The notes beneath the pieces are model-generated. The model saw only the letters and a program-made list of their open reading frames with translations. It was not told the origin of the DNA and searched no databases. Of a stretch of DNA of 45,707 nucleotides, positions 36,514 to 39,023 are shown piece after piece (within the stretch, counting starts at the first letter, position 1; every line of letters starts with the position of its first letter). A program made the position numbers and the translations under genes. The DNA comes from Phycisphaerae bacterium (GTDB taxonomy: Bacteria > Planctomycetota > Phycisphaerae > Sedimentisphaerales > SM23-30), in assembly GCA_016342495.1 (NCBI GenBank), contig JAEIOG010000035.1, positions 1-45,707 on the forward strand. Reading direction: 5' to 3'.

Positions 36514-36575
36514 GCGAATAATTAGCCCCATGAAATTATGAAATACATAAAGATAATTAAGAAAGGGAAAAACAA

Positions 36576-36965
36576 ATGAGAACCACATTACGAAAAACTT
36601 CGGCATGGATACCAGTAACTTACGGAAACACATATTCCAATAATTTAACTGGCCAACAGTTTACCGCTGATATTGATAACAATAATCATTCATGCACATT
36701 AAGCATTGACCTTTCAATCAATCTTAATAAAAGAAATCAAAATCAAAATTGTGTTAACGATGCAAATGAACTTGCAGAAAACCACGAGCAATTAAAATCA
36801 CTACACATCCATGACCAACAAGTAACAAAAGGCATAAGAAAGCTGGATAAAAACAATACTATTAATGATTGGATATTAGAAATCATATTAGGCAGCAAAG
36901 GCCCTTATAGCTACTCCGCGTCACTTGACATAGAGAACGATATCACAAAAATAACAATCAAATAA
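36576..36965 (+). CDS. Hypothetical protein between hisC and hisB
   Basis: The product has 129 residues, is rich in Asn, Ile, Lys and Asp, and has no signal peptide or membrane segment. I do not recognise the family. It looks like a small mainly beta protein: strands such as SCTLSIDLSINL and YSASLDIENDITKITI flank a charged middle (QLKSLHIHDQQVTKGIRKLD). A GAAAGGG ribosome binding site lies before the ATG and spacing to hisC (62 bases) and hisB (48 bases) fits an operon. Composition appears more AT-rich than the his genes around it, suggesting later insertion. A role in histidine synthesis should not be assumed. Confidence 0.6.
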   Translation: MRTTLRKTSAWIPVTYGNTYSNNLTGQQFTADIDNNNHSCTLSIDLSINLNKRNQNQNCVNDANELAENHEQLKSLHIHDQQVTKGIRKLDKNNTINDWILEIILGSKGPYSYSASLDIENDITKITIK

Positions 36966-37013
36966 TTAAACTTCATGCTCTTCATGCCTTCATGGTGAAA
37001 AAAGGAATTAAAA

Positions 37014-37601
37014 ATGAGCAGAATTGAAACAATCGAACGTAAAACCAATGAAACCGATATCGCCTTGGAGATCAATCTTGATGGCTGCGGTAAATCCGAT
37101 ATCGCCACTGGCATTGGCTTTTTTGACCACATGCTGACCCACATCGCCAAGCATGGCCGCTTTGACCTGAATGTCAAATGCAAAGGCGACCTGCACATCG
37201 ATGCCCATCACAGCGTCGAAGACATCGCTATTGTTCTGGGCCAGGCATTTAACAAGGCCCTGGGCGATAAACGCGGCATAACCCGTTTTGCTTCGTGCAG
37301 TCTGCCTATGGAAGATGCCCTGGCAAATGTTGCAATCGACCTCTGTGGCCGCCCTTTCTGCATATATAATGTAAAATATACCAGCGGTAAAATTGGCGAA
37401 TTTGATGTTGAACTGGTAGAAGAATTCTGCCGGGCATTTACCAATAATGCCAGATTGAACCTCCACATCAATGTCCCCTATGGCACCAATAACCACCACA
37501 TTGCCGAAGCGATCTTCAAAGCCATGGGCCGTGCCCTAAGCGATGCGGTCAAGATTGATCCAACCCACAATGATGTCCCCAGTACAAAAGGAATGTTGTA
37601 A
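37014..37601 (+). CDS. hisB: Imidazoleglycerol-phosphate dehydratase
   Basis: HisB removes water from imidazole glycerol phosphate to form imidazole acetol phosphate, the substrate for HisC. The 195-residue monofunctional form lacks the phosphatase domain of E. coli HisB. Its manganese-ligand motifs are present: GFFDHMLTHIAKHGRFDL, DAHHSVEDIAIVLGQA and NNHHIAEAIFKAMGRAL. An AAGGAA ribosome binding site precedes the start. The stop lies five bases before the left arm of the inverted-repeat element, so the element sits immediately after the gene without damaging it. Confidence 0.96.
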   Translation: MSRIETIERKTNETDIALEINLDGCGKSDIATGIGFFDHMLTHIAKHGRFDLNVKCKGDLHIDAHHSVEDIAIVLGQAFNKALGDKRGITRFASCSLPMEDALANVAIDLCGRPFCIYNVKYTSGKIGEFDVELVEEFCRAFTNNARLNLHINVPYGTNNHHIAEAIFKAMGRALSDAVKIDPTHNDVPSTKGML

Positions 37602-37606
37602 AATAT

Positions 37607-37657
37607 AGCGAGTAAGTGAGAAAGCGAGAAAGTGCTCGGTGTTGCTTCGCGTACCTT
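37607..37657 (+). repeat. Left inverted arm of IVS-like element
   Basis: The 51-base arm pairs with 38280-38338 along its length with a few mismatches and one 8-base gap. It is itself built from short GCGAGTAAG/GCGAGAAAG units, and its outer end lies six bases after the hisB stop codon. Confidence 0.8.
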
Positions 37658-37687
37658 ATTTTAAATTAGCGGAAAGGAAGATTAGTT

Positions 37688-38056
37688 ATGGCGGGACAGA
37701 CTTATCGTGACTTACTGATTTGGCAAAAAGCAATGAACCTGGTGACCATTTTGTACAAACTGACAGCTTCCTTTCCCGATGATGAGAAATTCGGCCTGAC
37801 CAGCCAAATGCGTCGGGCAGCAGTTTCTGTGCCAAGCAATATCGCAGAAGGCTATGGCCGCAGCAGCAAAAATGATTTCGACCGCTTTTTGCATTTTTCG
37901 CTTTCCTCGCTTTACGAACTCGAAACACAGCTGCAAATCGCCTGCAATCTAAATTATATCGATAATAACAAAACTGAAGACGCATATTCATTATGCCACG
38001 AACTGGAAAGAATGCTCAATAGCTTCATAAAAACCGTACAAGCCAAAAAAAAGTAA
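37688..38056 (+). CDS. Four-helix-bundle (S23/IVP) protein
   Basis: The 122-residue protein belongs to the four-helix-bundle family named from 23S rRNA intervening-sequence proteins and related to the Avd accessory protein of diversity-generating retroelements. The start reads TYRDLLIWQKAMNLVTILYK, helix two includes the signature SQMRRAAVSVPSNIAEGYGR, and two further helices follow, ending in a lysine tail. Basic residues fit nucleic-acid binding. GGAAAGGAAG precedes the ATG and lies inside the element. The gene is enclosed by long inverted arms, so it is likely cargo of that element. No reverse transcriptase or variable repeat is nearby, so an Avd role is not supported. Confidence 0.88.
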   Translation: MAGQTYRDLLIWQKAMNLVTILYKLTASFPDDEKFGLTSQMRRAAVSVPSNIAEGYGRSSKNDFDRFLHFSLSSLYELETQLQIACNLNYIDNNKTEDAYSLCHELERMLNSFIKTVQAKKK

Positions 38057-38279
38057 AAACTCAGCGATTAAGTTAAAAAATACTAAAGAGATATTCTTAT
38101 GGACAAACCAGTTTCTTTTGCAACAACAATAGGTATTTTTATTATCGACGAATTTTTTTGAAAAAATGGCAATATTGCAATAGCTTTTGTATGCAGAGAT
38201 TTTTTTCTTTTTGTGTATCATATTATGAAAAACAGTGATTAATATCAAAGTTTATCCAATATCACCAAAAAATTAAAAC

Positions 38280-38338
38280 AAGATACGCGAAGCGACATTG
38301 AGCACTTACTCGCTTTCTCGCTTACTCACTTACTCGCT
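38280..38338 (-). repeat. Right inverted arm of IVS-like element
   Basis: The 59-base arm is the inverted partner of 37607-37657. It ends 13 bases before the start codon of the endonuclease III-like gene, leaving almost no host leader for that gene. Confidence 0.8.
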
Positions 38339-38351
38339 TTTTGAAATTATC

Positions 38352-39023
38352 ATGACAAACAAAAAAAACATCCTACAACAATTCTACGACACCATGCTAA
38401 CCGCTTTTGGCCATCAGCACTGGTGGCCGGGGGATTCTCCATTTGAGGTTCTTGTCGGGGCGGTCCTGACCCAGAATACCAACTGGACCAATGTCGAAAA
38501 AGCTATCACTAATCTCAAAAATGCAAATGCTCTTGACCCGTTTATTATTCGTGATATGCCCAATGAGCAATTAGCTGCACTGATTAAGCCATCGGGGTAT
38601 TTGAATCTTAAAACAAAAAGGTTGAAAAACGTCATCGCTTTCCTCTGTGAAAAACACGAAGGCGATATCGAAAACCTAAAGAATTATCCCGTTTATCAAT
38701 TACGTGAAGATCTCGTCAGCATCAATGGCATAGGCCCTGAAACCGCCGACAGCATCATCCTCTATGCCCTGGAGAAACCAACATTTGTCATCGATACCTA
38801 TACCCACCGTATCCTGACCCGCCATCAGCTAATCGACCCTGATGCTCAATATGAAGATCTAAAAGAATACTGCCAGTATAATCTGCCGGAAGATACCCAG
38901 CTATACAATGAATGCCACGCCCTGCTGGTGCAAATCGGTAAAAACTACTGCAAACCCAAACCAAAATGCGAAAACTGCCCGTTGAATAAATACCCACATC
39001 AGCTGGAAGAATTATATACATGA
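38352..39023 (+). CDS. Endonuclease III-like DNA glycosylase
   Basis: The 223-residue protein (start at 38352, MTNKKNILQQFYD; upstream codons lie in the repeat arm) is an HhH-GPD base-excision glycosylase. It has VLTQNTNWTNVEKAI, the hairpin INGIGPETADSIILYAL, and the catalytic aspartate in VIDTYTHRI. The lysine that lets endonuclease III act as an AP lyase is replaced by Glu (GPETAD against the usual GRKTAN), so it should be a monofunctional glycosylase, perhaps of the MagIII-like group. The C-terminus has CKPKPKCENCPL, part of an iron-sulfur loop, but a fourth cysteine in standard spacing is not evident. No good ribosome binding site remains; the inverted element ends 13 bases upstream. Confidence 0.87.
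   Translation: MTNKKNILQQFYDTMLTAFGHQHWWPGDSPFEVLVGAVLTQNTNWTNVEKAITNLKNANALDPFIIRDMPNEQLAALIKPSGYLNLKTKRLKNVIAFLCEKHEGDIENLKNYPVYQLREDLVSINGIGPETADSIILYALEKPTFVIDTYTHRILTRHQLIDPDAQYEDLKEYCQYNLPEDTQLYNECHALLVQIGKNYCKPKPKCENCPLNKYPHQLEELYT

Follow-up and report, generated by a model that had tools for sequence, protein, structure and literature searches.

What does a gene of the S23 family, known from intervening sequences (IVSs) of ribosomal RNA, do between two protein-coding genes, and is it a fixed part of the locus or a copy of something that moves? The question is raised by the window studied here, the whole 45,707 nucleotides of contig JAEIOG010000035.1 from a Phycisphaerae bacterium, in which such a gene lies between hisB and a DNA glycosylase gene and is enclosed by two inverted repeat arms. 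We propose that the segment at about 37602-38345 is likely to belong to a class of small, widely distributed mobile elements, in each of which an S23 gene stands between two inverted arms; these arms are built of short tandem repeats, usually 7 nt long and here 8. That this segment is a mobile element built from an S23 gene and repeat arms is very probable on comparative grounds. At the level of sequence, comparison establishes the architecture, the repeat period, the occurrence at many sites and in many phyla, the existence of filled and empty sites, the travelling of the arms with the gene and the purifying selection on S23. The compared loci also show that the elements insert at gene junctions, mostly within operons and in the sense direction, leaving the stop and start codons of the host genes intact.

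Anatomy of the element in the window

A repeat search of the window yielded inverted arms at 37607-37667 and 38270-38330, each of 61 nt, 85% complementary and spaced by 602 nt; the stem of about 50 bp claimed in a preliminary description of this DNA is thus real, and its coordinates were correct within a few bases. A second register pairs 37607-37632 with 38313-38338 (26 nt, 96% complementary) and results from the fact that the arms consist of 8-nt tandem repeats, for example AGTAAGTG and AGAAAGCG, together with an inner conserved stretch. The left arm (37607-37667, forward strand) starts with the tandem repeats (AGCGAGTAAGTGAGAAAGCGAGAAAG), which the genome also has at other places in the form of solo arms, and continues into the inner stretch, where sequence reading places the sub-arm motif GCTCGGTGTTGCTTCGCG at 37634-37651 (forward strand). 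A related sequence in the solo arms, GCTCGGTGTCGCTTGGCGAC, contains a mini-hairpin, GTCGC..GCGAC. The right arm (38270-38340, reverse strand) carries the inverted 8-nt repeats that offer the two pairing registers, and its inner motif at 38286-38303 (reverse strand) mirrors 37634-37651, as seen from sequence reading and from the arm alignment. The local alignment score of the two arms is 38.5, against a maximum of 16 among 5000 shuffles, and as RNA the segment 37600-38345 folds better than shuffled sequence does (z = -6.5), both arms being paired in the predicted structure; these and the other z tests are built on simple shuffles.

The S23 gene (37688-38056, forward strand) is the only gene between the arms and encodes a protein of 122 residues. 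It matches PF05635 (23S_rRNA_IVP) in Pfam with E 1.1e-40 and TIGR02436 in NCBIfam with E 1e-39, and the AlphaFold2 (AF2) model is a four-helix bundle with a confidence (pLDDT) of 94, in agreement with the four-helix-bundle gene of the S23 family that had been described in the loop of the stem. The match to the S23 structure from Xanthomonas, 2gsc, is evident both in sequence (E 6.5e-26) and in fold (Foldseek TM 0.91); the Xanthomonas protein forms a homopentamer (PMC4990558). Purifying selection acts on S23, with dN/dS of 0.06-0.11 where sites are unsaturated. A search of a phage collection gave no match.

Recurrence of the architecture at other sites

The genome holds four PF05635 genes at four different sites, and all four are directly enclosed by inverted short-tandem-repeat arms of different units, namely AGAGAGTA, AAGGCAT, TAGGCGA-like repeats and the 8-mers of the window. 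The copy on contig C213 is 78% identical to the window gene, the two being sisters (support 100/99), each with units of 8 nt; saturation at their synonymous sites indicates that the duplication is not recent. Arms of the window type also stand alone, with no gene, in several other parts of the genome (L283, L286-L292, L011), several of them with the mini-hairpin, and the eight solo arms with a clear upstream gene are in the sense direction and mostly lie within about 65 nt past its stop codon; one of the eight sits between genes reading as atpA and atpG. A check of this genome for the arm sequence and for S23-type genes, suggested in the preliminary description, therefore returned both further S23 genes in arms and solo arms. 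The fourth S23 gene (L004) is oriented opposite to its neighbours, and the adjoining genes are phage-like by sequence reading only.

The survey was extended to other genomes, binning errors being possible in contigs of metagenome-assembled genomes, and neighbour genes being called by the longest open frame. In the family and order PF05635 genes are present in 49 of 59 genomes, with a maximum of 13 copies. Inverted arms (z ≥ 4) enclose about 59 of the 92 S23 loci scored in the same order, and their autocorrelation evidences a period of 7 (multiples 14 and 21) and a lesser period of 8 (16), nearly absent from control stretches. In a stricter test, 47% of loci had own arms scoring above the 99th percentile of arms exchanged among elements, compared with 2% of control genes. 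Arms of like kind (z > 4) were observed at 61 of 89 scored loci in a second set, composed of 80 loci from named genomes (Bacteroidota, Clostridia, Planctomycetota, Acidobacteriota, Pseudomonadota, candidate phyla radiation (CPR) bacteria and one archaeal bin) and ten cyanobacterial plasmid loci. The repeat unit differs from element to element. Using E. coli 23S as the query, no match was obtained in any fetched locus. A location in rRNA was considered for the sites common to several genera and ruled out, these sites being protein operons. Two of the plasmid loci (L176, L180) have the S23 gene inside CRISPR operons, as cas6|S23|cas4 and cas10|S23|cmr3, and in a Planctomycetota bin (L259) the arms are very long, near-identical ACGGTGG repeats with an alignment score of 130, perhaps a recent insertion.

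The arms travel with the gene, as shown by the increase of repeat-unit similarity with S23 protein similarity among elements at different sites in different genera (Mantel r 0.18, reached in 0 of 2000 permutations); the named set gives the same figures (r 0.18, 0 of 2000) after removal of all pairs with homologous flanks. Insertion is also almost always in sense: among loci with arms and two clear neighbours, both neighbours read in the sense of S23 rather than against it in a ratio of 23:0 in the relatives and 35:1 in the named set, 58:1 in total, and exceptions exist, for example on two cyanobacterial plasmids. This bias suggests either a step that depends on the direction of transcription or strong selection against the opposite orientation, between which the data do not separate.

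Filled and empty sites are seen at the V-ATPase B|D junction, compared across 30 genomes. The spacing is 2-117 nt in most of them, and five genomes hold S23 elements of differing unit sequence, several of which are similar, in S23 as well as in unit, to elements at other sites; in two genomes of one genus the S23 elements differ and the flanks are near-identical. Other occupants are a four-helix-bundle-like gene in one genome, a GxxExxY-like gene in another, and gene-less remains in one or two; the gene-less inserts with repeat arms (L141 and L153) are possibly deletion remnants or arm-only elements. Within one genus, the def|fmt junction carries an element in G034 and none in G037, and two related plasmid operons of Nostoc ATCC 53789 are reciprocally filled and empty at two neighbouring junctions, with what may be short duplications (TTCTA; TAATG/TTATG) at two Nostoc sites. 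A further candidate empty site, that of L078 in G037, was discarded, as it holds another insert with a larger gene, GNAT-like by sequence reading.

As for the window, the element begins 5 bases past the TAA (37599-37601) of the upstream host gene hisB (37014-37601, forward strand; PF00475, NF002109), and in the longer register ends 13 bases ahead of the ATG (38352) of the downstream host gene, an HhH-GPD DNA glycosylase or endonuclease III-like gene (38352-39023, forward strand; PF00730), a placement seen directly in the window sequence and close to what had been reported. Rfam finds no rRNA family at this site. None of the 17 relatives with readable sequence downstream of hisB has an S23 gene there; the hisC-hisB adjacency is conserved in relatives and the hisB|glycosylase pair is retained in none, and thus the window site is shown only as absence of S23 after hisB. 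The core of the earlier proposal, an IVS-like S23 element that lies outside rRNA and inserts between genes, is upheld by this absence in 17 of 17 relatives, by the sister copy and solo arms in the genome, by the architecture in many phyla and by the filled and empty sites.

Proposed mechanism and competing explanations

In the transcript of the operon the arms would fold into a long hairpin, which RNase III may cut, as it does in rRNA IVSs; by analogy with these, we regard the cutting step as slightly favoured. A hairpin so removed from the operon mRNA would render the insertion tolerated and nearly harmless. The S23 ring protein, in turn, would recognise the repeat units in the arms that enclose its gene and participate in copying or inserting the element; such recognition is suggested by the coupling of unit and protein clade, and we give it an even chance. 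The enzyme that breaks and joins DNA is not encoded in the element and would probably be supplied in trans.

Several observations weigh against a mobile S23 element. Neither the open reading frames (ORFs) nor Pfam reveal a transposase or recombinase inside the window element, as already stated in the preliminary description. Compensatory change between the arms is not demonstrated, the mean score of own arms in same-site pairs (11.2) hardly exceeding that of cross pairs (9.6), and in the Nostoc comparison the element ends are approximate and the target duplication is no more than possible. Furthermore, some same-site elements of different genera are sisters, which indicates that part of the distribution is vertical, and a share of the S23 loci, put at about 40% or, more loosely, at about a third or more, has no clear arms; these may be decayed or different.

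Among the alternatives, the one that survives best, and which we nevertheless consider unlikely, is a non-autonomous DNA element moved in trans by a single-strand Y1 transposase (of the IS200/IS605 or the REP-associated type), with S23 as cargo or accessory and the arms as hairpin substrates. The mini-hairpin in the solo arms speaks for it, as do the Y1 genes found in 33 of the 35 genomes with at least three S23 genes, with a weak rank correlation of 0.33; however, Y1 is absent from two S23-rich genomes, the arm units vary among elements of one genome, unlike fixed transposon ends, and sense orientation to genes is unexpected for such transposases.

Retrotransposition, in which S23, like its relative Avd of diversity-generating retroelements (DGRs), would help an in-trans reverse transcriptase to make DNA from the hairpin RNA after its excision, appears less probable still. 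By Foldseek the window protein resembles Avd both alone (4dwl, TM 0.78) and within the DGR ribonucleoprotein (8ube and 8ub7, TM 0.76-0.78), Pfam gives a weak match to the bAvd model, and sense orientation is compatible with an RNA step. The window gene is, however, below the cut-off of the Avd equivalog model in NCBIfam (37.3 versus 80 bits), and the window contig (C201) carries no reverse transcriptase, those of the genome being on C48, C9, C78 and C80; template/variable repeats were not seen, no search aimed at them having been made. A general dependence on reverse transcriptase is rejected, as 22 of the 35 genomes with at least three S23 copies have none detectable, and copy numbers are uncorrelated (rho 0.09).

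Alternatively, the unit could be a cellular regulatory or RNA-processing module, such as a hairpin at which mRNA is cut together with a dedicated binding protein, retained for a host function rather than selfish. Strong purifying selection on S23 and the sites common to several genera would agree with this, which we nonetheless hold for improbable in view of the turnover of sites, the very different neighbour genes, the different elements at one junction and the absence from many relatives. An ancient fixed gene whose repeats arose by local replication slippage, unrelated to S23, is the least credible, given that, although tandem repeats do expand by slippage and the Coxiella heptamer number varies by strain (PMC4990558), slippage gives neither matching inverted arms around one gene family nor clade-linked units at unrelated sites, filled and empty sites contradict it, and the fixed arrangement envisaged in the preliminary description, with arms nowhere else beside such genes and the same gene at the same place in all relatives, failed on both counts, at hisB and in the four armed S23 genes of the genome.

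Relation to known systems and to a second family

A mobile S23 element invites comparison with the rRNA IVSs that carry an S23 ORF in Coxiella, Leptospira, Xanthomonas and Brucella, where the gene also lies within a stem of inverted arms. In the Coxiella 23S rRNA IVS, GACAGAT tandem heptamers precede the S23 ORF and RNase III cuts within the stem (PMC4990558), and the same source names IVSs as possible mobile elements; CPR bacteria likewise have 23S_rRNA_IVP in inserts of 16S/23S (PMC11270868). RNase III excision is known for IVSs, whereas the window element and all loci studied here lie between protein genes: by location it is not an rRNA IVS, and by anatomy it looks like one. From the Coxiella heptamers, rRNA IVSs look like special cases of S23 elements. 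Orphan heptamers described as TAACTGA in Beggiatoaceae, with no mechanism evident (PMC4679880), and as GGGAATC in Xanthomonas, with 70-75 convergent inverted pairs, and GGGGA(C/T)T in Nostoc (PMC4692102), resemble the arms in their period of 7 and in their intergenic location adjoining start or stop codons, and several S23 arms have TAACTGA-type units; this comparison is by repeat form and placement, as the two papers mention no S23 genes or element. Miniature inverted-repeat transposable elements (MITEs) and the repetitive extragenic palindromes and mosaics (REP/BIME) are likewise short, dispersed and intergenic, with inverted arms and solo copies, but the S23 element differs in having its own conserved gene, whose product is no known transposase, and tandem-repeat arms with an element-specific unit.

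In the open-access literature we found no description of S23 genes that are enclosed by repeat arms at non-rRNA sites, subscription journals being outside this scope and an earlier description there possible, and no paper joining IVSs, the S23 protein and orphan heptamer repeats. Apparently, a very common class of tiny mobile elements is undescribed. To our knowledge, how IVSs arose and how they move have been open questions since the early 1990s, and no function has been assigned to the S23 protein, whose structure was solved in 2006. The finding connects these two puzzles with that of the orphan heptamers, and S23 genes in matching repeat arms at many non-rRNA junctions constitute a ready comparative system, opening testable questions on the binding of S23 to its own repeats, the cutting of the hairpin from operon mRNA and the mover of the element. 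Genome annotation is also affected, since S23 inserts sit inside many essential operons.

In the same genomes, GxxExxY genes (PF13366, of PD-(D/E)XK type) also lie in inverted arms, these with a period of 9 (ACCACGAAG-like units; L262-L281), and at least once such a gene occupies the V-ATPase junction also used by S23 elements (L147:1033-1410). With period 7 in S23 arms and 9 in GxxExxY arms, the repeat period follows the protein family, which is compatible with, and no proof of, a protein that recognises the repeats. A broader proposal, which we advance tentatively and would rate somewhat below an even chance, is that S23 elements represent a new transposase-less class, in which the arm period is set by the protein family, at 7 nt in the case of S23 and at 9 nt in that of the nuclease-like GxxExxY, that they are the source of the long-known orphan heptanucleotide repeats in bacterial genomes, and that rRNA IVSs are copies landed in rRNA.

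Finally, between hisC and hisB (36514-37013) the window contains an orphan ORF of 129 residues (36576-36965), found in no relative. The inverted arms on its two sides are weak (a score reached in 11 of 2000 shuffles) and repeat CATGAA at intervals of 9 nt; ORF and arms probably form another element within the same operon as the S23 element, this one of the kind with period 9.
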